A DNA stretch of 27,057 nucleotides from a virus. Below, piece by piece: positions 1,106 through 18,359 of the stretch. Location of the stretch: positions 1 through 27,057 of the IMG/VR virus record IMGVR_UViG_3300021961_000518; one strand, written 5' to 3'. The position numbers and the translations under genes were made by a program. Under the pieces are notes generated by a model. It was not told the DNA's origin, ran no database searches, and was given only the letters and a program-made list of their open reading frames with translations. The first letter of the stretch is position 1. Each line of letters opens with the position of its first letter.

Positions 1106-3352
1106 ATGGCCGACCCCACAGGCATCAACACGGCAGGCAAAGTAGCCAACGTCGGCTCTAACCCGCCCAAAACGTCAGGTGACGACGGCGACAAGATGGC
1201 AACCATGCGGTCGCGCCTCCAGATGGCGCAGGCTGCGTACTCTGACAGCCGTGAAGATGAACTGGATGACCTACGGTTTATGGCAGGATCGCCAGACAAC
1301 CAGTGGCAATGGCCTGCTGACGTGCTGGCGACCCGCGGAAGTGTGCAAGGGCAGACAATTAACGCACGTCCATGCTTGACAATTAACAAATTACCGCAAC
1401 ACGTCCGTCAAGTTACGAACGAACAGCGTCAAAACCGCCCTAGCGGCAAGGTAATCCCTGCCGATGACAACGCTGACGTAGAAGTTGCAGAGATTTTCAA
1501 CGGCGTTATGCGTCATATTGAGTATATGTCGGACGCCGACGTTGCATATGATACTGCCTGCGACAACCAAGTTACCTACGGCGAAGGCTATATCCGCCTA
1601 ATAACTGAGTATTGCGACGAAGACAGCTTTGATCAAGACATTCGCATTATGCGCGTCCGTAACTCGTTTAGCGTCTACATGGACCCGACGATCCAAGACC
1701 CATGCGGCGCAGACGCTGAATGGTGTTTTGTTACTGAAGACATCCTGAAATCCGACTATGAGCGTATGTTTCCAGACGCAGCGCCTATCTCGACTCTTAT
1801 GTCGCAGGGCGTCGGCAATGAAAGCATGGCACAGTGGCTGGCCGAAGATACCATCCGCATCGCGGAATACTTCTACAAAGACTACGAAAAAGCTACGCTG
1901 CACCTGTATCCGGACAACCAGACAGCTTTCAAAGGTACGCCGCAGGATGCTAACTTGCAGGCTATGTTTGGCAAGCCCATCCGCACACGCGAAGTAGACC
2001 GCCAGAAGGTCATGTGGATGAAAACCAACGGTTTTGACATCCTTGACGAACGCGAATGGCCGGGCAAGTGGATACCTGTCGTGCGCGTCATCGGCAACGA
2101 ATGGGAAGTCGAAGGCCGTATGTACATCTCTGGCCTTGTGCGTAATGCCAAGGACGCCCAGCGGATGTACAACTACTGGACGAGCCAAGAGGCAGAAATG
2201 CTGGCGCTGGCGCCAAAAGCACCGTTTATCGGCTACGGCGGCCAGTTCGAGGGTTACGAACAGCAGTGGAAGACTGCCAACACGACCAACTGGCCGTATC
2301 TGGAAGTCAATCCTGACGTTACAGACGGCGCTGGAGGCGTTCTACCGCTGCCACAACGCGCACAGCCACCTCTGCCCCAGACAGGCCTGATACAGGCTAA
2401 AATGGGCGCTGGAGAGGATATTAAGGCCACTACAGGCCAGTATGACGCATCGCTAGGCCAACAGGGCAACGAACGTTCGGCTAAGGCTATCATCGCACGC
2501 GAAAAGCAGGGCGATGTCGGCACGTATCACTATGTTGACAACCTTGCCCGCGCCATTCGCCACATCACACGGCAAGTCGTTAATCTTATCCCTAAGATTT
2601 ACGACACGCAGCGCATTGCACGCATCATCGGTGTTGATGGCGACGTGAGCATGGTTAAGTTCAACCCAACGCAGCCAGAGCCGGTCAAGGAAGTCCGCGA
2701 CATGGAAACTGGCGGATTGATCGAAAAGATTTACAACCCCGGCGTTGGTACATACGACGTTATGGTCACAACTGGCCCCGGCTACATGACCAAGCGTCAA
2801 GAAGCACTCGACGCCATGAGCCAGATTCTGCAATCCAACCCACAACTTTGGGGTGTTGCAGGCGATCTGTTCATCAAGAACATGGATTGGCCCGGCGCGC
2901 AAGAAATGGCCGAGCGGTTCAAGAAAATCCTTGATCCTAAGGTACTTGCTTCAGGCGATGAGTCACCTGAGATGGCTGCTGCACAGCAACAAATGGAAGC
3001 GATGGCTCAAGAACTGAACCGCATGGTCGATATTATCGAGGGTGTTCAGGCTGACGTCGCGAAGCGTGAAGTAGACATCAAGGAATACAAGGCTCAGGTA
3101 GACGCCTACGACGCTGAAACAAAACGTATCAGCGCGATGCAAGCAGGGATGACAGAAGAGCAAATTCAGGATATTGTCATGGGGACGATTGCCGGTGCGT
3201 TAGACACAGGCGATCTAATTAACGGATCACCAGAAATGCGTGAACAACCTATGATGAACGAAGAAATGCCTCCACAGCAACCAATGCCGGAAATGGGCGG
3301 TATGCCTGAAATGCCAGAGCAGCCACCTATGCCGCCTGAAGGAATGATGTAA
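1106..3352 (+). CDS. Portal protein (P22-like)
   Basis: This 748-residue protein matches the P22 gp1 type of portal in length (P22 is about 725) and texture. Portals form the dodecameric ring at one head vertex through which DNA enters and leaves, and to which the tail hub binds. Visible marks are the V-Y-M-D-P segment near residue 190, the N-E-R-S-A-K-A-I stretch near 455 that begins the long helical region, and a coiled-coil-prone Gln/Glu-rich region from about 624 to 690. The C-terminal 35 residues are a Met/Pro/Glu-rich low-complexity tail. The tail replaces the regular barrel helix ending and may be flexible. The start is three bases after the previous gene. The stop overlaps the next ATG (TAATG). 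Confidence 0.93.
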   Translation: MADPTGINTAGKVANVGSNPPKTSGDDGDKMATMRSRLQMAQAAYSDSREDELDDLRFMAGSPDNQWQWPADVLATRGSVQGQTINARPCLTINKLPQHVRQVTNEQRQNRPSGKVIPADDNADVEVAEIFNGVMRHIEYMSDADVAYDTACDNQVTYGEGYIRLITEYCDEDSFDQDIRIMRVRNSFSVYMDPTIQDPCGADAEWCFVTEDILKSDYERMFPDAAPISTLMSQGVGNESMAQWLAEDTIRIAEYFYKDYEKATLHLYPDNQTAFKGTPQDANLQAMFGKPIRTREVDRQKVMWMKTNGFDILDEREWPGKWIPVVRVIGNEWEVEGRMYISGLVRNAKDAQRMYNYWTSQEAEMLALAPKAPFIGYGGQFEGYEQQWKTANTTNWPYLEVNPDVTDGAGGVLPLPQRAQPPLPQTGLIQAKMGAGEDIKATTGQYDASLGQQGNERSAKAIIAREKQGDVGTYHYVDNLARAIRHITRQVVNLIPKIYDTQRIARIIGVDGDVSMVKFNPTQPEPVKEVRDMETGGLIEKIYNPGVGTYDVMVTTGPGYMTKRQEALDAMSQILQSNPQLWGVAGDLFIKNMDWPGAQEMAERFKKILDPKVLASGDESPEMAAAQQQMEAMAQELNRMVDIIEGVQADVAKREVDIKEYKAQVDAYDAETKRISAMQAGMTEEQIQDIVMGTIAGALDTGDLINGSPEMREQPMMNEEMPPQQPMPEMGGMPEMPEQPPMPPEGMM

Positions 3353-4824
3353 TGACCGTAAGCCTCAAGCATACCTTTCAGTCTGCTAAACTTGACAGCG
3401 CCGACACAACAATTGTTCAGCCATCCAACTGGAACGAAGAACATCAACTGACGCTTGCCACCAATAAGGTGCTAGGCCGCGCTACGGCTGGCACAGGCGC
3501 TGCCGAAGAAATTAACATCGGCACTGCTTTGTCGGTATCTGGCGGCACGCTGGCTGTAACTAACGTACCTGTCGCTAATGGCGGTACAGGCGCGACAACG
3601 CTGACCGGCGTAGTTAAAGGTAACGGCACGTCACCTATGACCGCCGGCGCTGTTGATCTTACGACTGAAGTGTCTGGTACGCTCCCTGTTGCAAACGGCG
3701 GTACAGGTGCTGCAACGCTAACAGCTAACAACGTCCTAATTGGCAACGGCACGTCGGCTGTAACTTCTGTCGCGCCGGGTACTTCTGGCAATCTACTGAC
3801 TAGCAACGGCACAGCGTGGACGAGCGCGGCTCCAACAACCGGTCCAGTACTTGAGTTTACAAGACCGTTTGTAACGCAAACTACTACAAACTTTACTGTT
3901 CCGTCCGGTGTTACAGCCATTCGGCTTTACGCCTGCGGCAAAGGCGGCGACACAATTTCAAACGGCTCTGTTATTATGGGCGGCGCCGGCGGGGGCGGTT
4001 TTGGTTTTGGAACCTTAGCGGTTACGCCCGGACAAGTAATCAACGTAACAATTAGTGGCGGCGTGGCTACTGTAGTACGCAGCGGAACAACTTTAATTAC
4101 TGCAAACCCCGGCAGTAGTGTTACCAACAGCGGAACCGGCGGCGCTGGCGGAACTGCCACAATAAATGGTGTTTTGACTAGCGGCGGCGCTTTTACTGGA
4201 GGCTCCGGCGGTTCCAATGTTAACAGCGGCCCCGGCGGAGGAGGTTCAGCCGGCTCACCGCTTGGAAATGGATTTGCTGGCGGCGGCGGCGGCCTAAGCG
4301 CAGGCGGCGGCGGCGGCGGAATCGGTGGTGTAGGGGGATTGGGTCTTGGCAACACTAACGGCGCCGGCGGCGGCGGCGGCGCAGGCGGCGCTGGCTCGGC
4401 ACCTGTTGCTGGCGGGTCTGGCGGCGGGTCTGGCGGCGGCGCTGGCGGCGCGGCAAACGGGCGAATCCCCGGCGCAGGCCGTGTGATACCTTTTTCCGAT
4501 CCTCTTTTGGCTGGCTTAACGGCAACGGGCGCCATCGCTGGAAGTACTAACGGTCTCATGTCATTGACTAGCGGTCCCGGCGCTGGGGGCGCTGGGGGTG
4601 CTGCCGGAACTAATGGTCTTGCTACTCCGGGCGGTTTTGGCGGCGGCGGCGGCGGTCGCGCTTCATCCAATAGTAATGGAGTTTTCGTTGGAGGCGCTCT
4701 AGGTGGCGGCGGCGGCGGCGACTATAACTCCGTTGTCGCCTCACTTGCGGGCGGCGGCGCCGGCGGTATTGACGCCGTTGGTACACTTGTGGGCGGCCCA
4801 GCAACAGTCTGGATTTATTATTAA
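3352..4824 (+). CDS. Glycine-rich tail fibre or adhesin-like protein 1
   Basis: This protein has 490 residues. The first 165 contain two copies of a phage-fibre repeat, P-V-A-N-G-G-T-G-A followed by T-L-T and N-G-T-S, which is common in tail fibre stems. From about residue 168 a glycine-rich domain starts with F-T-V-P-S-G-V-T-A-I-R-L-Y, the usual first strand of Gly_rich_2-type domains. It continues with many GGG runs to a final strand W-I-Y-Y. Known Gly-rich phage adhesins, such as the S16 gp38 tip, pack such runs as polyglycine II helices that bind host receptors; that role here is inferred. The start overlaps the portal stop (TAATG). Lying between portal and scaffold is an unusual place for a fibre gene. 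Long antisense frames here are GGC/GCC shadows. Confidence 0.8.
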   Translation: MTVSLKHTFQSAKLDSADTTIVQPSNWNEEHQLTLATNKVLGRATAGTGAAEEINIGTALSVSGGTLAVTNVPVANGGTGATTLTGVVKGNGTSPMTAGAVDLTTEVSGTLPVANGGTGAATLTANNVLIGNGTSAVTSVAPGTSGNLLTSNGTAWTSAAPTTGPVLEFTRPFVTQTTTNFTVPSGVTAIRLYACGKGGDTISNGSVIMGGAGGGGFGFGTLAVTPGQVINVTISGGVATVVRSGTTLITANPGSSVTNSGTGGAGGTATINGVLTSGGAFTGGSGGSNVNSGPGGGGSAGSPLGNGFAGGGGGLSAGGGGGGIGGVGGLGLGNTNGAGGGGGAGGAGSAPVAGGSGGGSGGGAGGAANGRIPGAGRVIPFSDPLLAGLTATGAIAGSTNGLMSLTSGPGAGGAGGAAGTNGLATPGGFGGGGGGRASSNSNGVFVGGALGGGGGGDYNSVVASLAGGGAGGIDAVGTLVGGPATVWIYY

Positions 4825-5473: not shown

Positions 5474-5791
5474 ATGGAAATTTTACGCCCTCTTAACGAC
5501 GCCGGTTTTGCTACTCAAAGCGTAGCTTACACTGGGACTGCTGGTTCTGTAACTGGCTGGAACGCTGGCCCGCAAGCCGTGCTGGTGTGGTGTACATCTG
5601 ATGCGTATATCCGCGTTGGTAACGGCGCTACGGCTACGACGGCTGACACGCCGCTGCCAGCCAACACGCCCGTACCTATTTACGTACCACAACCCGGCGA
5701 TGCTGGTGGTAACGGCGGTCCTTGGCGCGTCAGCGCGATCCAGATCAGCGCCGGCGGCACAATGTACGCAAAGCCGATCAACATCCGATGA
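5474..5791 (+). CDS. Small structural-type protein, 105 aa
   Basis: This 105-residue protein is predicted to be mostly beta-strand. It reads like a compact phage surface or head protein: V-L-V-W-C-T-S-D-A-Y-I-R-V-G-N-G-A-T-A-T, then P-L-P-A-N-T-P-V-P-I-Y-V-P, ending in an I-S-A-G-G-T-M-Y-A-K-P-I strand. I recall similar short proteins in the structural blocks of podoviruses, without assigned function. It starts after a weak AAGGA-type site at 5461-5465. Its TGA overlaps the ATG of the next gene at 5788, so it is coupled to the second adhesin. Confidence 0.7.
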   Translation: MEILRPLNDAGFATQSVAYTGTAGSVTGWNAGPQAVLVWCTSDAYIRVGNGATATTADTPLPANTPVPIYVPQPGDAGGNGGPWRVSAIQISAGGTMYAKPINIR

Positions 5792-6756
5792 GTTTCGGCG
5801 TCCCCGTCCGTAATGGTATAGGTATAGGCTTAAAAGCCTCTACTTCGCTGTCTACGCGCAGTGGGCCAAGCGGTCCGCCTCAAGGACAGCAGGCCTACAC
5901 TACTGCGGGGACTTATTCCTTTGTTGTGCCTACGGGCGTGACAAGCGTGTGCGCTGTTGTTGTCGGCGGCGGCGGGGCTGGCCGCGCAGGCGGCACGGGC
6001 GGCGGCGGCGGCGGCGGCGGCCTTGCGTATTCCAACGCCATTTCCGTAACCCCCGGCGAAACTTTGACTGTTACTGTTGGTGCCGGGGGGCCATTTAATT
6101 TCGCCGGCAGCGGCAGCGGCAGCGCAAATGGCGGAACGTCATCCGTTGCGCGCGGCGGAACTGCGCTTGTTTCAGCTACGGGCGGAATTTCTGCGCCTTC
6201 GACAACTGGCGGCGCGGGCGGCAGCGGCACCGTAGGGCAATCACTGCGTACCGGCGGGGCCGGCGGTAGTGCCAACTCAACCGGGTCCGGCGGCGGCGGT
6301 GCTGCGGGCTACACCGGAAACGGTGGCGCTGGCTCTTCTTCGCCGGCGTCATCGGGAAGTGCTGCTGCTACGGGCGGCGGCGGGGGCGGTGGTGGTGCTT
6401 CGGGGTATTTTTATCAAGACCCCGGCGTATATTACGGACAAAACGGTGGTTCGGGCGGCGGCGGCGTAGGATTGTTAGGCCTTAGTAACACGGGTATCGC
6501 CGGCGCAGGTGGCGACGGTTTTTCATACGGCGGCGGCGGCGGGTCTGGCGGCGTAGCCGGCGGAAACTCTATTGGCAATTATAGCGGTTTTAGCGGCGGC
6601 GTTTACGGCGGCGGCGGCGGCGGCGCTGGGTTCATATATGATTATGCGACAGACACGCAGACAAACGGCTCGGCTATAGGCGGCGCTGGCGGCGGCGTCC
6701 GTATCATTTGGGGCGCAGACCGCGCATTCCCTTCAACTAACACGGGTAACGTCTAA
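5788..6756 (+). CDS. Glycine-rich adhesin-like protein 2
   Basis: This 322-residue protein starts at ATG 5788, chosen because it overlaps the upstream stop (ATGA). The frame stays open to 5722, but that extension gives an Arg/Gln-rich, non-conserved head. Residues 36-65 read A-Y-T-T-A-G-T-Y-S-F-V-V-P-T-G-V-T-S, then a strand and G-G-G-G, the classic opening of a Gly_rich_2 domain. About 230 residues of Gly/Ser-rich text with GGG runs follow, closing with G-V-R-I-I-W-G. It lacks the N-G-G-T-G-A stem repeats of the first adhesin, so it may be a tip protein or a short fibre. Receptor binding is inferred from family resemblance. Confidence 0.8.
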   Translation: MSFGVPVRNGIGIGLKASTSLSTRSGPSGPPQGQQAYTTAGTYSFVVPTGVTSVCAVVVGGGGAGRAGGTGGGGGGGGLAYSNAISVTPGETLTVTVGAGGPFNFAGSGSGSANGGTSSVARGGTALVSATGGISAPSTTGGAGGSGTVGQSLRTGGAGGSANSTGSGGGGAAGYTGNGGAGSSSPASSGSAAATGGGGGGGGASGYFYQDPGVYYGQNGGSGGGGVGLLGLSNTGIAGAGGDGFSYGGGGGSGGVAGGNSIGNYSGFSGGVYGGGGGGAGFIYDYATDTQTNGSAIGGAGGGVRIIWGADRAFPSTNTGNV

Positions 6757-9824: not shown

Positions 9825-10535
9825 ATGGAAACGGCTGGGGACATAATCAACGGTTCGCTTAGGCTTCTAGGCGTTCTGGCAGAAGGCGAAACTCCCTCGG
9901 CTGAAACGTCGCAAGACGCCTTGCGCGCTATGGATCAGATGATCGATAGCTGGAACACTGAGCGCCTGTCCGTTTTCGCTACGCAAGACCAGATATTCAC
10001 ATGGCCTGCCGGCGAACTGTCGCGCACGCTTGGCCCTTCCGGCGACTTTGTCGGCAACCGCCCAGTGCTGCTTGAGGACTCGACATATTTCCGCGATCCC
10101 GGCACCGGCATTAGCTACGGCATCAAATTCATTAACCAGCAGCAGTATAACGGCATCGCGGTTAAGACGGTGACATCTACGTTCCCGCAAGTCATCTTCG
10201 TCAACAACACGTACCCTGACATTGAAATGTACATCTACCCGCGCCCTACGCGCGCTCTGGAATGGCATTTTATTTCGGTCGAAAAACTGACACAGCCGGC
10301 TTCGCTCAATACCAACCTTACATTTCCGCCCGGATACTTGCGTGCGTTCCGTTACAACTTGGCGTGCGAACTAGCACCTGAGTTTGGCGTTGAGCCATCG
10401 CCGCAAGTCCAGCGTATAGCTATGACATCTAAGCGCAACCTGAAGCGCATCAACAACCCAGACGACATCATGTCGATGCCGTACAGCATTGTGGCTACAC
10501 GCCAGCGGTTTAATATCTTCGCAGGAAACTACTAA
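9825..10535 (+). CDS. P22 gp4-like tail accessory / head-completion protein
   Basis: This 236-residue protein looks like the P22 gp4 type of tail accessory factor, which binds the portal ring after packaging and closes the head. N-terminal text includes I-N-G-S-L-R-L-L-G-V-L-A-E-G-E-T, then A-M-D-Q-M-I-D-S-W-N, a characteristic start of this family. The middle is strand-rich, and the C-terminus has L-K-R-I-N-N-P-D-D-I. P22 gp4 is about 166 residues, so this version is longer, but the N-terminal match and the place before the gp10-like gene support the call. The stop overlaps the next start (TAATG). Confidence 0.85.
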   Translation: METAGDIINGSLRLLGVLAEGETPSAETSQDALRAMDQMIDSWNTERLSVFATQDQIFTWPAGELSRTLGPSGDFVGNRPVLLEDSTYFRDPGTGISYGIKFINQQQYNGIAVKTVTSTFPQVIFVNNTYPDIEMYIYPRPTRALEWHFISVEKLTQPASLNTNLTFPPGYLRAFRYNLACELAPEFGVEPSPQVQRIAMTSKRNLKRINNPDDIMSMPYSIVATRQRFNIFAGNY

Positions 10536-12067
10536 TGAAGACGCCCATACTGGGCAGCGCGTATGTGGCCCGTTCAGTAAACGCTGCCGACGCACGCATG
10601 GTAAACCTGTTTCCAGAAGTCGTGCCAGAAGGCGGCATGGAGCCTGCCTTTCTACAGCGTTGCCCCGGCTTGCAGCTTCAACAAGTTATTGGCGAAGGTC
10701 CGATCCGCGGGCTGTGGGCGCACCAGACGCGCGGCGATGACTTCTACGTCGTATCCGGCTTTGAAGTCTACAAAGTGTCCAGCCTTACCGGGACGCCCAT
10801 CAAGCTAGGCGACGTGACCGGCACAGGTCCAGTATCCATCGCCGACAACGGCGCGCAGATATTCTTTGCCTGCAACCCTGACGCGTTTATTTACGACGAG
10901 TCAACCGACACGTTTGGGCAAATCACCGATCCTGACTTTCCGGGCGCAGTCACCGTCGGCTATCTGGACGGCTATTTCGTGTTCAACGAACCAAACAGCC
11001 AGAAGATTTGGGTGACGCAGCTTTACGACGGCTTTCAGATTGACCCATTAGAGTTTGCTAGCGCCGAAGGTAGCCCTGATGGCGTTGTCGGCATATTGGT
11101 AGACCACCGCGAATGCTGGGTGTTTGGTACCGACTCCACTGAAGTGTGGTACAACTCCGGCGGCTTAGACTTTCCGCTTTCGCCGATCCAAGGCGCGTTC
11201 AACGAAATCGGTTGCGCCGCACCACACTCCATCGCCAAGATGGACAACACTGTGTTCTGGCTGGGCGCTGACGCCCGCGGACAGGGTATCGTCTACAGGG
11301 CGGCTGGCTATAACGCACAGCGCGTGTCTACGCACGCGATTGAATGGCGCATCCAAAACTATCTAAACATGAGCGACGCGGTCGGCTACACTTACCAGCA
11401 GGACGGCCATGCGTTCTACGTTCTGTCGTTCCCATCTGCTGACGAAACATGGGTGTTTGACGCGTCTACTGGTGCATGGCACCAGCGGTCATCTTACGCC
11501 GCTCTTGCGCCAACTGAAGGTGCGTTTAACGCCGAAGCGTTTTATACAGGCGCGTTCTACACGGTGCTGCCGCTTACGCCTTCTGGCGTCAGTGGGGCAT
11601 TCTCACGTCACCGCAGCAACTGTCAGTGTAACTTCCAAGGCAATATCATTGTCGGCGACTACGCTAACGGCAACATTTACACGTTTGAGTTAAATGTTTT
11701 TGAAGACAACGGGATCGCGCAGCGTTGGTTGCGGTCGTGGCGCGCGCTGCCGACAGGACAAAACAATCTTAAGCGTACAGCAAACCATAGTTTGCAGCTT
11801 GAGTGCGAAACAGGCGTCGGCCTGAACACAGGCCAAGGAAGTGATCCGCAAGCCATGCTCCGCTGGTCCGACGATGGCGGCCATACATGGTCCAACGAAC
11901 ACTGGGCGTCTATGGGTAAGATCGGCGCAACTGGCACCCGCGTCATGTGGCGCCGGCTTGGCATGACGTTGAAGCTGCGCGACCGCGTCTACGAAGTGTC
12001 TGGCAGTGACCCTGTCCGTATTTATTTGACAGGCGCTGAACTTCTGTTGAGCGGCACAAATGCTTGA
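10535..12067 (+). CDS. P22 gp10-like packaged-DNA stabilisation / tail hub protein
   Basis: This 510-residue protein is close in length to P22 gp10 (about 472), which sits below gp4 and closes the tail hub. The opening M-K-T-P-I-L-G-S-A-Y, then D-A-R-M-V-N-L-F-P-E, and a repeat-rich beta-propeller-like body with many G-x-D and W segments match the stabilisation-protein family. Aromatic W-V-F-G-T-D-S-T-E-V-W-Y near residue 200 is the most recognisable part. Start and order support the call: it overlaps the gp4-like stop and lies before the distal tail genes. It ends eight bases inside the next gene. Confidence 0.87.
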   Translation: MKTPILGSAYVARSVNAADARMVNLFPEVVPEGGMEPAFLQRCPGLQLQQVIGEGPIRGLWAHQTRGDDFYVVSGFEVYKVSSLTGTPIKLGDVTGTGPVSIADNGAQIFFACNPDAFIYDESTDTFGQITDPDFPGAVTVGYLDGYFVFNEPNSQKIWVTQLYDGFQIDPLEFASAEGSPDGVVGILVDHRECWVFGTDSTEVWYNSGGLDFPLSPIQGAFNEIGCAAPHSIAKMDNTVFWLGADARGQGIVYRAAGYNAQRVSTHAIEWRIQNYLNMSDAVGYTYQQDGHAFYVLSFPSADETWVFDASTGAWHQRSSYAALAPTEGAFNAEAFYTGAFYTVLPLTPSGVSGAFSRHRSNCQCNFQGNIIVGDYANGNIYTFELNVFEDNGIAQRWLRSWRALPTGQNNLKRTANHSLQLECETGVGLNTGQGSDPQAMLRWSDDGGHTWSNEHWASMGKIGATGTRVMWRRLGMTLKLRDRVYEVSGSDPVRIYLTGAELLLSGTNA

Positions 12068-13520: not shown

Positions 13521-13859
13521 ATGCCAATTATCGCAGTAAACATCATCCCCGCCAAGAACATGGAAAACGCCCAGACTGTGCAGTATGTGTCGCCAAGCAG
13601 CACCACGACCATCATTGACAAGTTCACCGCTACCAACTTTAGTAGCGGCATGGTCAACGTAAGTGTCAACTTGGGCGCGGTTAGCGAAGCCACAGGCAAC
13701 AGCAACTTGATCGTCAAGACGCGGACGCTGCAACCCGGCGAGACGTACACCTTTCCTGAAATCGTAGGACACGTCCTGCCGACCGGCGGGTATGTTTCAA
13801 CACTCGCGTCAGCAGCAGCGGCAGTCAACTTGCGCGCGTCTGGCCGCGAAATTAGCTAA
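13521..13859 (+). CDS. Small tail or structural protein, 112 aa
   Basis: This 112-residue beta-rich protein opens M-P-I-I-A-V-N-I-I-P-A-K-N-M-E-N-A-Q, with I-I-D-K-F-T-A-T-N and P-G-E-T-Y-T-F-P-E-I-V-G. It ends in L-R-A-S-G-R-E-I-S. I recall this pattern (A-K-x-M-E-N-A-Q, I-I-D-K, R-A-S-G-R-E) in small proteins encoded near tail hubs of several podoviruses, with no assigned function. It is probably a beta-sandwich. Translation is coupled to the next gene by TAATG overlap. It could be a tail accessory or a fibre-joining protein. Confidence 0.7.
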   Translation: MPIIAVNIIPAKNMENAQTVQYVSPSSTTTIIDKFTATNFSSGMVNVSVNLGAVSEATGNSNLIVKTRTLQPGETYTFPEIVGHVLPTGGYVSTLASAAAAVNLRASGREIS

Positions 13860-14926
13860 TGCCGCCGTTCGTCGTATTTTCACTACCCAGATCACGGTCA
13901 GCTTGGCTGTCGCAGTTTCTGACTTACGGTGAGTGGATATGCGGTCATGAAGAACTACGGCATATGCGTAGCGTTGATGACGTACAGGCATGGTTTTCCC
14001 AACCTAACATCGGCACTGCGGAGACTGCGGCTGCGCCTTGGTGGCGACTGCTAGACAAGTTTGCACCCAACGCCCGCGTTCTAGTTGTACGCCGTCCGCG
14101 TGACGAAGTTGCCGAAAGTCTTATGAAGATACCCGGCACGCAGTTTGACCGCGCTAAACTTGACGCGTTGCTTCTGAAGCTGGACCGCAGCCTAGACCAG
14201 ATTGAGGCGCGGCTACCTAACGTCTTGTCGGTGTCGTTTGACAGCCTGAACAAAGAAGACACTTGCGCGGCAGTGTTCGAGCATTGCCTTCAGCAGCCGC
14301 ATGACCTCGACCACTACGCGCGTATGGCGCCTGTCAACATTCAAATCAATGTGCCTGCGATGATGCGTCATTACGAAGCATACGCGCCGGCGATGGAAAA
14401 GTTGGCGTCGGTAGCCAAGCACCAGACGATAACGGCGCTGGCGCCGAAGGTTAATGAGCCGCCTGAAGGCGTCACCTTCCAGACTGAAGATTTTGATAGC
14501 TGGGTGCGCGACGCCGACAGCCTGTTTGACGAGCATCTTATTCAGGTAGGCGAAACGCCGGGCAACTGGCAGAATAAAAACTTGCCGCTTATGCGCGCGC
14601 TGGATGGCGTCGGGGCTATGCAGATAATGACCGCTCGGTGTAATGGCCGTATGTTTGGTTATCTTATGACGTTAATATCACCGTCGCTAACTTCGCCAGA
14701 CATTTTGTCCGCCACAAACACTACGTTCTTCGCGTCGCCAGAGTTCCCCGGATTGGGGTTGAAGCTGCAACGCGAAGCAATTAAAGAACTAAAAAATAAA
14801 GGTGTTGACGAAGTCTTTTTTGAGGCAGGGAAAAGGGGTTCCGGACCCCGTATTTCCATGCTATACAAGCGCCTTGGCGCGCAAGATCACGGTAGTGCTT
14901 ACCGTTTGCAACTGAAGGAAGCGTAA
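13859..14926 (+). CDS. Sulfotransferase-like / GNAT acetyltransferase-like fusion enzyme
   Basis: This 355-residue protein appears to have two enzyme parts. Residues 4-130 look like a PAPS-dependent sulfotransferase: F-S-L-P-R-S-R-S-A-W-L (7-17) fits the 5'-phosphosulfate loop, and V-L-V-V-R-R-P-R-D-E-V-A-E-S (74-87) fits the 3'-phosphate motif, with R79 and S87 as the expected binding residues. Residues about 205-350 look like a GNAT acetyltransferase: a core strand A-M-Q-I-M-T-A-R, a degenerate acetyl-CoA loop near P-G-L-G-L-K-L (297-303), and a closing S-M-L-Y-K-R-L-G-A. The loop departs from the usual Q/R-x-x-G-x-G/A. The substrate is unknown. It lies among tail and ejection genes, so surface glycans or tail proteins are plausible targets. 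It is rightward and coupled by TAATG. Confidence 0.7.
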   Translation: MPPFVVFSLPRSRSAWLSQFLTYGEWICGHEELRHMRSVDDVQAWFSQPNIGTAETAAAPWWRLLDKFAPNARVLVVRRPRDEVAESLMKIPGTQFDRAKLDALLLKLDRSLDQIEARLPNVLSVSFDSLNKEDTCAAVFEHCLQQPHDLDHYARMAPVNIQINVPAMMRHYEAYAPAMEKLASVAKHQTITALAPKVNEPPEGVTFQTEDFDSWVRDADSLFDEHLIQVGETPGNWQNKNLPLMRALDGVGAMQIMTARCNGRMFGYLMTLISPSLTSPDILSATNTTFFASPEFPGLGLKLQREAIKELKNKGVDEVFFEAGKRGSGPRISMLYKRLGAQDHGSAYRLQLKEA

Positions 14927-14927
14927 A

Positions 14928-16526
14928 ATGGGTTTGGCAGCAGCAGCAGCTATAACAGCTACAACCGCGGCGGTCGGCGGTGTAGTCGCCAGCAAAGCAT
15001 CTAAAAGGGCCGCTAACGCACAGGCTCAAGCAGCTACTACGGCGGCGCAGTCGCAGGAGCGCGCAGCAGCGTTGGCAGTAGAGGCGCAGCGCACCGGATC
15101 GGCTGAAGCTGTTGCAGCGGCAAGAGACGCAGCAGCCACAGCGCAGCAGGCGCAGAATGAGGCAAATTTTCAGGCGCAGAACCTAGAACGCTTACGCTTT
15201 AACGAAACGCGCATGGCGGACGAGCGCGCGTTTACTGGCGCGCAAGAAGCCGCGGACAGGGGCTTCGACGCCGCTCAAGGCGCGTATACTTCTTCATTCG
15301 GCGCGGCGCAGGCGGCTAGCGATTTAGGTTTTGACACCGCGCTGGCCGATGCCACTAGGGGTTTCGACACCGCTCTGGGTGACGTAAACAGGGGTTATGA
15401 CCTAGCGCAAGCGGCGGCGGAACAAGGTTACACCACCGCTGAAGAGGCTTACAGGCAGGCGTACCAGCGGCAGGGTGAATTTCAAGACCCATACATAAAA
15501 AGCGGCCTTACTGCCCAAGAGCAGATCATGCAGCTTATGGGTATCGGCGGCGACAAGACCGCCGCTGACTACGGTCAGTACGCTAGGTCATTTGGCGCGG
15601 GCGATTTTGTAGAAGACCCCGGCTATGCCTTCCGTCAATCGGAAGGTCTAAAGGGGCTAGAGCGTTCAGCATCCGCCCGCGGCGGCATACTGTCCGGCGG
15701 CGCGCTGAAGAATATCCAGCGGTTCGGCCAAGACTTAGCCAGCCAAGAATACCAAAACGCGTTCAACCGTTACCAGACTGAACGCGCAGCACGCCTTAAC
15801 ACGCTCGGCGGTTTGTCCGGCGCGGGTCAGTCAGCGGCGAATGTCATGACGGGTGCCGCAGGGCAGCTTGGCTCAAACAGCGCGGCAAACGCTTTGGCGC
15901 GGGCGCAGGCGACATCCGCGAACTCCATAGGGCGCGGGACCACAACCGGCAATATCGCCATGACCCGCGGCGCAACAACAGGCAACATCGCCATGAACCG
16001 CGGCGCGACAACCGCCGGAAACGCTTTGGGGCTTGGTCAAGCAACAGCAGGAACTGCTTTGGGGCGCGCTAACGCAACCACTCAAAACCTTATGGCCCAG
16101 AACGCGGCGACTAACGCAAACAACGCGGCGTATTACGGTAATATAGGTAACCTTACACTGGCCCAAGGCCAGAACACAGCGCAGAATGCGTACAACGTAG
16201 CCAATGCCGTTTCAGGCGGCGCCATGAACGTAGCAAACGCTGCGTCGCAGGGCGCGTACAATGTCGGCAATGCACAGGCCACAGGCGCGATGAACACCGG
16301 CGCAGCCCGTGCGTCTGGATACATCGGTCAAGCCAACGCGCTAACAAACGCTCTGGGCCAGATAGGTAACTATGCAGCGCAGGCGCCTATGAACAACGCC
16401 ATGATGGCTTATTATAGGAACAACACCCCTGACACGCCGGCCACACCCGCCAGCGCCAACCCGTATTTTTCTGCTGGGCAAGGACCGCAAAAACTACCGT
16501 TTAACATTCTTAATTTGGGAAGATAA
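14928..16526 (+). CDS. DNA ejection protein (p32-like DNA transfer protein)
   Basis: This 532-residue protein is Ala/Gln/Asn-rich. It starts with a hydrophobic Ala-rich segment (3-22, a possible membrane-active helix), followed by a long helical region. Residues 105-185 contain repeated G-F-D or G-Y-D/T units about 11-12 residues apart. The middle, near residues 225-300, matches text I recall from proteins annotated DNA transfer protein p32: P-G-Y-A-F-R-Q-S-E-G, then G-G-I-L-S-G-G-A-L-K and E-Y-Q-N-A-F-N-R-Y. The last 200 residues are Asn/Ala/Gly repeats. Such proteins leave the particle with the DNA and help build a channel across the envelope. It is the first of three consecutive ejection genes, at the P22 gp7 position. 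Confidence 0.8.
   Translation: MGLAAAAAITATTAAVGGVVASKASKRAANAQAQAATTAAQSQERAAALAVEAQRTGSAEAVAAARDAAATAQQAQNEANFQAQNLERLRFNETRMADERAFTGAQEAADRGFDAAQGAYTSSFGAAQAASDLGFDTALADATRGFDTALGDVNRGYDLAQAAAEQGYTTAEEAYRQAYQRQGEFQDPYIKSGLTAQEQIMQLMGIGGDKTAADYGQYARSFGAGDFVEDPGYAFRQSEGLKGLERSASARGGILSGGALKNIQRFGQDLASQEYQNAFNRYQTERAARLNTLGGLSGAGQSAANVMTGAAGQLGSNSAANALARAQATSANSIGRGTTTGNIAMTRGATTGNIAMNRGATTAGNALGLGQATAGTALGRANATTQNLMAQNAATNANNAAYYGNIGNLTLAQGQNTAQNAYNVANAVSGGAMNVANAASQGAYNVGNAQATGAMNTGAARASGYIGQANALTNALGQIGNYAAQAPMNNAMMAYYRNNTPDTPATPASANPYFSAGQGPQKLPFNILNLGR
15933..15998 (+). repeat. 33-base tandem repeat in the ejection protein gene
   Basis: Two adjacent 33-base units encode the 11-residue pattern R-G-(T/A)-T-T-G-N-I-A-M-(T/N). 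A third, degenerate unit (R-G-A-T-T-A-G-N-A-L) follows from 15999. The protein repeat is clear while several third positions differ, so this is an old duplication, not a recent one. Confidence 0.7.
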
Positions 16527-16529
16527 CCT

Positions 16530-18359
16530 GTGGCAAACCAAATGATAGCCCTTCAGTCACGCGGACCACAACTTACTGATCCGTCGAGGCTGACAGCGCA
16601 GTACGCAAACATGATGAACATGGCGTCGCAACAGCGCGCGTCGAAACTTCAGGGTGAGCGCACGCGTCAGGAAATGAAGTTTGCGGAGAACGCCGAAGCG
16701 CGTGAAGTTGCTGGTGAACAGCGTGCGGCGCAAAAGTTTAGTTTGGAACAGTCAACAGCGTTAGTATCGGCGTTAGGTACAGGTTTGGTTGGTATATTAC
16801 GCGACCCCAGCGACGCGACCATAGGCCAAGTCGGTCAAACTTTTGCTAGTGTTGGCATGGACCCTGAAAAATTTGGTCCTTTGCTAAAACAGATACAAGA
16901 AATACCCGACGCAAACGACCGCAAACTGTTCGCGTTGCAATTCATTTCGCAGTCTGAACCGGCGCGCGGCGCGCTTAAATATGTCATGCCTGAAGTAAAA
17001 GAGACGAAGGTAGGCGACGCTACGGTATTCTTTGACGCCAACCCTAACTCACCTATTATGGGGCAAGAACTGTTCCGGTTCACCGCGCCACCAGAGCCAG
17101 TTAAAATGACTCAAAACGTTGTTGAAGGTACGGTAATCAACACAAACCCTTACACTGGTGTTTCCGCTGAGTCCGTTGTCGGCGATCCAAGAGCAAATCT
17201 TACTCCCGCCGTGCGAAACCCTACTTTCGCCAGCACTGGCGTCGCGTCGCCATACGCCGTCGGCGGCGGTACAGGCCAGCAGCCAATGATGCCGCCCGTT
17301 GCGCCTGCCGCACCGCCAGCAGCAGCCGTTGGAATACCTGTCGGCGGTCCGCGCGGTGCGCCGGGCGCGGGCGGCGATGTATTTAGCCGAATGATAAAGC
17401 AGGAATCCCGCGGCCAACAGTTTGATCGCAGCGGTCGCCCGCTCACGTCATCGGCAGGCGCTATTGGTATTGCTCAGGTTATGCCGGGTACGGCACCAGA
17501 AGCTGCTAAGTTGGCTGGACTTCCGTTTGATCCAAACAAATACCGCAATGACGCCAACTACAATCTTGCGCTCGGCAAAGCATACTACGAAAAACAATTG
17601 CGTGATTTCGGCGACGAGCGCCTTGCGGCTGCTGCGTACAACGCTGGCCCCGGTGCCGTGCGTAGCGCACTGAAAAAAGGTGGCCCTGACGGCTGGATTA
17701 ACCATGTCCCGTCAGAAACACGCAAGTATGTTAGGGCGGTGTTTGGCGGCGCCGGCGCACCTACACGTACCGGCGGCGCAGCGGCTGCACCTACCGGCGC
17801 ACCTCCCGCCACAGGCGCGGGCCAACCGATAACTCTAGGCGAACAACAGAGACGGAAAGGGTTCCAGAAAACTCTTGAGTTGTTTGATTACGACGCAGCG
17901 ACCGGCGCAGACTCGGTTTCTCCATTAATTAAAGCGTCCACCAGCGGCGGCGCAGAGAAACTAGGTTCTGACGTAGCAGGATTCTTCGGCGTAGGTACGC
18001 CGGGGCGGGTGGCCCTTGGTCAATTGGAAACGCTGAAAGACAACATGACGTTTGAAAAGTTGCGCGGCAAGTTAGGCGCACAAATTTCAGACGCTGACGT
18101 TCGCTTGATAGCTAGTACGATGGGCGACATAGCCAACCCGAATACCCCCGCGTCCGTGCGTTTGGCAAAATGGCAGAATATAGTCTTGCCGATGCTTGTG
18201 CGCGGCGCCGGCATGACGCCAGTAAAGCGGAAAACGGCGACCGGCGGCGGCAAAGATAAATCTGGTCTACCTCGTGTTACCACCGACGCCCAATGGAACG
18301 CGTTAAAGTCAGGACAAGAGTACATTGCGCCTAACGGCGAACGTAAAAGGAAACGGTGA
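16530..18359 (+). CDS. Ejection protein with lytic transglycosylase (SLT) domain
   Basis: This 609-residue protein starts at GTG 16530 with GGGAAG at 16517-16522 in front. The first 225 residues are helical and charged, then comes an Ala/Pro/Gly-rich linker. Residues about 285-400 form a soluble lytic transglycosylase domain: M-I-K-Q-E-S-R-G with catalytic Glu292, G-A-I-G-I-A-Q-V-M-P-G-T (310-321), and A-A-Y-N-A-G-P-G-A-V (368-377). These enzymes cleave the glycan strands of peptidoglycan, opening a path for DNA. The end carries a T-D-A-Q-W-N-A-L-K-S-G segment, a short motif I recall from other virion proteins, and terminates in R-K-R-K-R. It is the second ejection gene. Confidence 0.88.
   Translation: MANQMIALQSRGPQLTDPSRLTAQYANMMNMASQQRASKLQGERTRQEMKFAENAEAREVAGEQRAAQKFSLEQSTALVSALGTGLVGILRDPSDATIGQVGQTFASVGMDPEKFGPLLKQIQEIPDANDRKLFALQFISQSEPARGALKYVMPEVKETKVGDATVFFDANPNSPIMGQELFRFTAPPEPVKMTQNVVEGTVINTNPYTGVSAESVVGDPRANLTPAVRNPTFASTGVASPYAVGGGTGQQPMMPPVAPAAPPAAAVGIPVGGPRGAPGAGGDVFSRMIKQESRGQQFDRSGRPLTSSAGAIGIAQVMPGTAPEAAKLAGLPFDPNKYRNDANYNLALGKAYYEKQLRDFGDERLAAAAYNAGPGAVRSALKKGGPDGWINHVPSETRKYVRAVFGGAGAPTRTGGAAAAPTGAPPATGAGQPITLGEQQRRKGFQKTLELFDYDAATGADSVSPLIKASTSGGAEKLGSDVAGFFGVGTPGRVALGQLETLKDNMTFEKLRGKLGAQISDADVRLIASTMGDIANPNTPASVRLAKWQNIVLPMLVRGAGMTPVKRKTATGGGKDKSGLPRVTTDAQWNALKSGQEYIAPNGERKRKR

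Follow-up and report, generated by a model that had tools for sequence, protein, structure and literature searches.

GNAT genes are often seen beside the ejection genes of podophages, and they have been attributed to metabolism or host takeover. In the Zobellviridae/Cobavirinae (SIO1, ICBM2, CRP-4, VpV262, and Vibrio phage 1.015.O), the GNAT gene lies directly 5′ of the first gene for an internal virion or ejection protein. The Cobavirus GNAT was likened to T7 gp13 by its position, and the function given to it is a guess (PMC6775973). T7 gp13 and P22 gp14 (DUF2824) are themselves encoded directly 5′ of T7 gp14 and P22 gp7, respectively. Pseudomonas phage PfAn1 has a P22-like gene order with a hydroxylase and a GNAT in this slot, followed by an ejection protein that starts with MV. 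In the case of Bordetella phage BPP-1, the slot with the GNAT bbp24 belongs to a different podophage backbone and is located between the terminase and portal genes. Rim/Nat and NMT are protein N-terminal acyl/acetyltransferases that choose their substrates by residue 2.

The window analyzed here is the whole stretch of 27,057 nt, positions 1 to 27,057 of the IMG/VR virus record IMGVR_UViG_3300021961_000518. Its gene order is that of a P22-like podophage: portal, scaffold, coat, adaptor Ad3, Hc3, slot, ejection protein (phrog_598), and a transglycosylase-containing protein. The slot corresponds in position to the T7 gp13 and P22 gp14 genes, to the GNAT genes of the Zobellviridae/Cobavirinae, and to the PfAn1 slot. 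It differs from these in its content, a sulfotransferase fused to a GNAT (ST-GNAT); the GNATs of the Zobellviridae/Cobavirinae are homologous to its C half (phrog_1249) but do not have the sulfotransferase half, which PfAn1 also lacks. The genes of this region are as follows.

10535..12067, + strand: Hc3 head-closure gene, P22 gp10-like (phrog_578, E 5e-125), used as the marker for the backbone tree
13521..13859, + strand: 112-aa gene, left border of the swapped slot, adjoining the slot gene on its 5′ side, with its stop overlapping the slot ATG
13859..14926, + strand: ST-GNAT fusion gene (slot allele A), 355 aa, a single intact ATG frame
14928..16526, + strand: P22 gp7-like DNA-ejection protein (phrog_598), starting MGLAAAAAIT, the proposed substrate
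16530..18359, + strand: ejection/internal virion protein with a transglycosylase domain (PF01464, above cut-off)

The ATG of the ST-GNAT gene overlaps the stop codon of the upstream gene (TAATG) and the gene ends 1 nt before the downstream ATG, which is the spacing of a tightly coupled late operon. An earlier note on this DNA had described a sulfotransferase and a GNAT in one 355-aa frame of the tail region. The single frame was borne out: it is intact in 67 distinct ST-GNAT proteins, with identity down to ~50% and no internal stop in any of these copies. The placement has to be corrected, as the block is one of head completion and ejection and not the tail proper. In a search of environmental phages, which the note had proposed, a first scan of IMG/VR gave 70 loci with the single-frame fusion and a second scan gave 140 relatives. 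Five genome contigs (Alphaproteobacteria, Nevskia) also carry it in loci of prophage type, four of them at full length; the hosts are Azospirillum, Sphingomonas, Nevskia, and Beijerinckiaceae. The dN/dS values were 0.04-0.12 for the N half and 0.01-0.09 for the C half, which indicates purifying selection on both. The fusion is one real protein, not an assembly accident. In 50,697 phage records, no place reached 80% coverage of ST-GNAT. The open-access literature, subscription papers being outside the coverage, yielded neither a description of the fusion nor a report of N-terminal modification of ejection proteins. The view that this two-enzyme fusion is apparently without described precedent thus holds for these records and this literature.

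The domains and motifs of the fusion protein are listed below.

13859..14443, + strand: N half, residues 1-195, PAPS sulfotransferase-fold domain, assigned by fold and motifs
13883..13909, + strand: 5′-phosphosulfate-binding (PSB) loop LPRSRSAWL, residues 9-17, with P10-R13 and W16 invariant in 67 distinct proteins
14093..14119, + strand: 3′-phosphate motif R79...S87, invariant in 67/67
14477..14923, + strand: C half, residues 207-355, GNAT-fold domain, assigned by fold and phrog_1249
14744..14764, + strand: degenerate acyl-CoA pyrophosphate loop FPGLGLK, residues 296-302, with G298/G300 conserved

Structure prediction recovered a sulfotransferase fold for the N half. The AlphaFold model of this half alone (pLDDT 85.5) had tyrosylprotein sulfotransferases and SULTs as its top PDB fold matches (best E 6e-5, TMq 0.53-0.57), and P-loop kinases were ranked lower. 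The PAPS-type loop and the R79/S87 motif, noticed previously in the single sequence, were confirmed by the alignment. The loop consensus in the 67 distinct proteins, LPRSR[ST]xWL, matches the 5′-PSB loop type PRSGTxxL, and PRSR (10-13), R78, R79, and S87 are invariant in all of them. The spacing of 8 residues between R79 and S87 is that of the canonical 3′-phosphate motif, R(x7)S. The nearly invariant E32/R34 are only candidates for PAPS binding, the catalytic base, or activity. Against Pfam Sulfotransfer_3, the window protein scored 19.5 bits, below the 27-bit cut-off, and a stand-alone relative in Stenotrophomonas phage Bhz60 exceeded the Sulfotransfer_4 cut-off (26.2 vs 22.8). The N half resembles PAPS sulfotransferases (tyrosylprotein sulfotransferases, SULTs, and the phage families phrog_10855/38824) in its fold, PSB loop, and R...S motif. 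It differs from them in being ~190 aa long, fused to a GNAT fold, and encoded inside the ejection block, whereas the phage relatives found are stand-alone proteins of early regions.

The full ST-GNAT model (pLDDT 80) gave 591 PDB matches at E<1e-3, and those listed at the top were nearly all GNATs. In the fold comparison of the C half with AAC(3)-Ia, a TMt of 0.70-0.72 was obtained. Among viral proteins, the full model matched podophage GNATs (VpV262, CRP-4) and phage 'sulfotransferase family' proteins. The C half matches phrog_1249 ('acetyltransferase'), and hhalign (94.6%) shows its homology to the GNAT that Vibrio phage 1.015.O encodes as a separate protein. No curated Pfam match was found for the C half of the window protein; the score of the homologue in locus L064 was 20.9 against the Pfam GNAT cut-off of 20.7. 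PDB sequence searches with profiles of the halves gave weak matches only, the best HMM match of the C half being N-alpha-acetyltransferase NAA30 (E 0.01), so the fold evidence rests on the AlphaFold models. The T7 gp13 (PF11090) and P22 gp14 (DUF2824) families were considered for the C half and rejected on sequence (hhalign probabilities of 0.15% and 1.1%). Neither protein has significant sequence similarity to the fusion.

The description of the C-terminal part as GNAT-like with a degenerate CoA loop was right. The loop reads PGLGLK where [QR]xxGx[GA] (canonically RGxGxG) is expected; the central G300 is kept, and R/Q and the last G/A are lost. Because of this degeneration, the C half is labelled a GNAT-fold domain only, with putative catalysis. 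Many free-standing podophage GNATs are likewise imperfect at this loop, and E210, K240, N241, and G300 are invariant in the 67 distinct copies. The degenerate loop would suit a non-catalytic morphogenesis factor, in which the GNAT fold serves as an assembly chaperone on the hydrophobic N-terminus of the ejection protein, as a counterpart of T7 gp13 and P22 gp14, with the sulfotransferase half as a further module for binding. The gene position shared with T7 gp13 and P22 gp14 points the same way, as does the gp13-like role proposed for the Cobavirus GNAT (PMC6775973). However, the invariance of PRSR, R79, and S87 in 67 proteins and the low dN/dS in both halves are expected of a kept cofactor site, and we consider a purely structural role improbable.

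For 73 relatives of the ejection gene, the flanks could be read on both sides, and the content of the slot was surveyed in these. In 73/73, a GNAT-fold or GNAT-like gene separated the 112-aa gene from the ejection gene, in one of four forms.

Allele A (10 of 73): ST-GNAT, 355 aa
Allele B (19 of 73): GNAT, 153/154 aa
Allele C (20 of 73): gene of the Asp/Asn beta-hydroxylase family (PF05118, above cut-off) and GNAT, 180+151 aa
Allele D (24 of 73): short GNAT-like protein, 138-144 aa

The alleles are exchanged between closely related phages. The flanks of the slot are up to 96% identical between phages with different alleles, and Hc3 of three loci with alleles D (L144), B (L145), and C (L147) is shared with the window at 94-96%. 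When the slot alleles were placed on a tree of Hc3 from 88 phages, at least 32 changes of class were needed (minimum possible 3). On its left, the slot begins exactly at TAATG, where stop and start overlap. The transglycosylase ejection gene (window 16530-18359; same gene in L143-L217) is mosaic, with 0-78% identity among phages with Hc3 89-96% identical, and is a second variable spot in the ejection block. Stand-alone GNATs occur in the same slot in other podophages (Zobellviridae, PfAn1, Pam1/Pan3, and others); VpV262, Vibrio 1.015.O, Vibrio 1.077.O, PfAn1, SIO1, Pam1, ICBM2, Pan3, and CRP-4 all have one directly 5′ of an ejection-type gene. The gene upstream of the PfAn1 GNAT is 40% identical to the allele C hydroxylase, whose family includes protein and lipid hydroxylases, and the allele C GNATs share the imperfect CoA loop. 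Allele D matches phrog_1249 and the P22 gp14 family phrog_651 (E 0.0026), both weakly, and is the only slot form to touch the latter; a single-sequence comparison with P22 gp14 was weak as well. This resemblance of the short D-type allele favours the chaperone explanation, and the sharing of the slot by hydroxylase genes disfavours it.

The start of the ejection gene contains two further features.

14928..15002, + strand: initial ~25 ejection-gene codons, moving together with the slot gene and showing high column association
14931..14933, + strand: codon 2 of the ejection protein, GGT (Gly), the residue that tracks the slot allele

Each slot allele was found with its own residue 2 in the ejection protein. 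Among distinct sequences, Gly accompanied allele A in 53/53, Ala allele B in 13/13, Val allele C in 13/13, and Pro allele D in 10/10, which gives an agreement of 89/89 in the initial sample and U(class|residue 2)=1.00. The background of Gly2 in other genes of these loci is 3% (10/330). On the opposite border, the adjacent C-terminus of the 112-aa protein showed a U of at most 0.14 with the slot class; this gene has almost no link to the slot allele, though it is equally close. The residue-2 prediction was then recorded beforehand, and new loci were fetched with C-, D-, and B-type queries. After de-duplication by sequence containment, the distinct new cases gave Val in 41/41 for C, Pro in 35/35 for D (starts checked), and Ala in 35/40 for B. 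The remaining five B-type cases have Gly2 and form a subclade 44-48% identical to the query (L433, L432, L435, L451, L453), a natural case for locating specificity residues in the GNAT pocket. Phylogeny-controlled pairs all agreed (10/10, 5/5, 9/9, and 6/6). The N-terminal residue of the candidate substrate is matched to the enzyme type, as for an N-terminal acyltransferase; the link is correlative. That the allele match is sharpest at residue 2 speaks for an N-terminal enzyme and against a chaperone.

Part of the match comes from linkage between the slot and the start of the ejection gene. In aligned ejection-protein columns, the association with slot class fell towards background after ~25 residues, and the first ~25 codons do move with the slot. 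The body of the protein showed no clear pattern with slot allele, and it reassorts. An association beyond ~25 residues in unaligned sequences was rejected as an artefact of N-terminus lengths that differ between classes, and the aligned test was used instead. Linkage might account for the whole match if recombination passed on the slot gene and the beginning of the ejection gene as a unit, possibly because the slot gene contains the ribosome-binding site and the overlapping start; residue 2 would then be a passenger and the job of the enzyme would be elsewhere. The start codons of the ejection genes do overlap or abut the slot gene. Nevertheless, residues 3-12 diversify within classes while residue 2 does not change within A, C, or D, and each of the four Gly codons occurs at codon 2 with allele A, so residue 2 is not part of a frozen hitch-hiking segment. 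Gly2 is also kept where the remaining downstream protein is unrelated: it accompanied ST-GNAT in 56/56 over four downstream families mutually without detectable similarity, including locus L114 with a different, BPP-1-like backbone. Together with the absence of association at the equally close left neighbour, this pattern argues for selection on the residue rather than simple hitch-hiking, and we regard pure linkage as unlikely.

Deeper divergence shifts the code. The ejection proteins of isolates have G, V, S, C, or A at residue 2, and P22 gp7 and Burkholderia phage DC1 gp64 start with ML, off the code. A wider rule for deep relatives, 'any small, Met-removable residue', was not significant alone, as Ala, Pro, Ser, and Thr make up ~70% of second residues in these loci. 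In phage DC1, the GNAT gene (L466:1011-1442) overlaps the start of the virion protein gene gp64, an arrangement shared with the slot of the window. The GNAT of Bcep22-like phages was termed a moron in the JC1 paper (PMC9144972). One C-type locus (L139:7464-8549) encodes an ejection protein with the N-terminal extension MLYMKRKLQGHTFE before VAAAIGVSAAAG. This recalls P22 gp7, from which host OpdA cleaves the first 20 residues (P22 record note), and by analogy cleavage of the extension could expose Val.

ST-GNAT is not confined to backbones closely related to the window. In some phages, Hc3 is 24-34% identical or undetectable, yet ST-GNAT is 51-60% identical. One ST-GNAT backbone (L064 and L127, the latter a prophage of Azospirillum rugosum) has a phrog_376 tail protein upstream, and another (L119) has phrog_4287. 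In L114, ST-GNAT is part of a BPP-1-like backbone, with the portal 60% and the MCP 50% identical to BPP-1. The slot of this backbone lies between the terminase and portal genes and contains a GNAT in BPP-1, a hydroxylase and a GNAT in Limnohabitans phage DC33, and ST-GNAT in L114; the same enzyme kinds are therefore exchanged at two genome positions. Phage DC33 (L458, PQ492659.1) is recorded as Inoviridae and is probably a misclassified podophage, its terminase and portal being BPP-1-like (61% and 66%). In ctXG1253 (L459:3498-4675), a hydroxylase gene directly precedes the gene for a hydrophobic ejection-like protein that starts with MP; no GNAT gene separates the two, and this hydroxylase may act without a GNAT.

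We favour, with somewhat better than even confidence, the explanation that the enzyme encoded in the slot is devoted to modifying the N-terminus of the ejection (pore) protein; both the chemistry and the N-terminus as acceptor are what we infer from the match. The slot enzymes would probably modify the tip of the neighbouring pore protein that opens the path into the bacterium. Gly, Ala, Val, and Pro are all permissive for Met-aminopeptidase, and GNAT-fold N-terminal acyltransferases recognize a substrate by whichever residue comes first once Met has been removed; for N-acetylation, Pro2 is uncommon as an acceptor. The 355-aa protein would be one allele of a slot whose enzymes serve the outer-membrane pore protein of short-tailed phages, their first ejection protein. 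The initial ~25 ejection-gene codons would be exchanged together with the slot gene as a single cassette. For the GNAT-fold half of the 355-aa protein, the most probable activity is acylation or acetylation of the ejection-protein N-terminus after loss of Met, with allele A matched to Gly2. The likeness to Rim/Nat and NMT would consist in the GNAT fold and the residue-2 dependence of substrate choice; the window enzyme differs in that its activity is putative and that it would serve a single virion protein encoded next to it. For the sulfotransferase half, the likeliest target of sulfation is this same protein, or else the group that the GNAT half has added; it would be an add-on comparable to the hydroxylase gene of allele C. 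This parallel suggests decoration by add-ons, and action of the sulfotransferase half at the N-terminus is less likely than the N-terminal job of the slot itself. The first residues of the ejection protein form a hydrophobic Ala/Gly-rich segment, and T7 gp14, its counterpart, enters the outer membrane (PMC8954989). The modification could help the pore to insert, or protect the protein from proteases or defences of the host.

The earlier note had instead proposed a two-step modifier that would sulfate and acetylate a glycan or protein, alter the particle surface, or block superinfection. In such a role, the enzyme would be packaged or expressed late, and its target would be a glycan or protein of the host. 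Some phage GNATs do have host targets, as is reported for Rac of phiKMV-like phages (PMC7552054), and the stand-alone sulfotransferase relatives in early regions of other phages would fit as well. On the other hand, ST-GNAT is not placed like a moron but lies inside a late morphogenesis operon, between structural genes, with a strict link to the ejection gene that it abuts, and there are no glycan or membrane genes nearby. The slot allele tracks the N-terminal residue of the ejection protein, which indicates a virion protein rather than a glycan as substrate. A modifier of the host or of the particle surface is therefore unsupported here and very improbable. The two halves may still act in two steps on one substrate.

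A bolder form of the N-terminal modification explanation, which we hold to be rather improbable, is a combinatorial code in which the GNAT-fold enzyme would place an acyl group on the pore protein and add-ons would decorate it: the hydroxylase in allele C, the sulfotransferase in allele A, and both in L061, where a hydroxylase gene adjoins ST-GNAT on the upstream side. Such substrate-matched caps would be interchangeable on the first protein ejected and diversified by selection from host envelopes, proteases, or defences. The match between allele and residue 2 gives the slot GNATs a concrete candidate substrate, and the role of the slot, T7 gp13 and P22 gp14 included, becomes directly testable. 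If the N-terminal modification explanation is true, phages carry dedicated, swappable modification enzymes for their cell-opening protein, one of them a phage sulfotransferase acting on a virion protein.

Two other genes of the window were noted. Immediately 3′ of the portal gene, positions 3352-4824 encode a 490-aa protein with no Pfam or PHROG match. Between portal and scaffold, positions 5722-6756 encode a Gly-rich domain protein (PF21722) with a weaker match to a tail-fibre-assembly PHROG, which by these matches appears to be a fibre-like gene in an unusual place.
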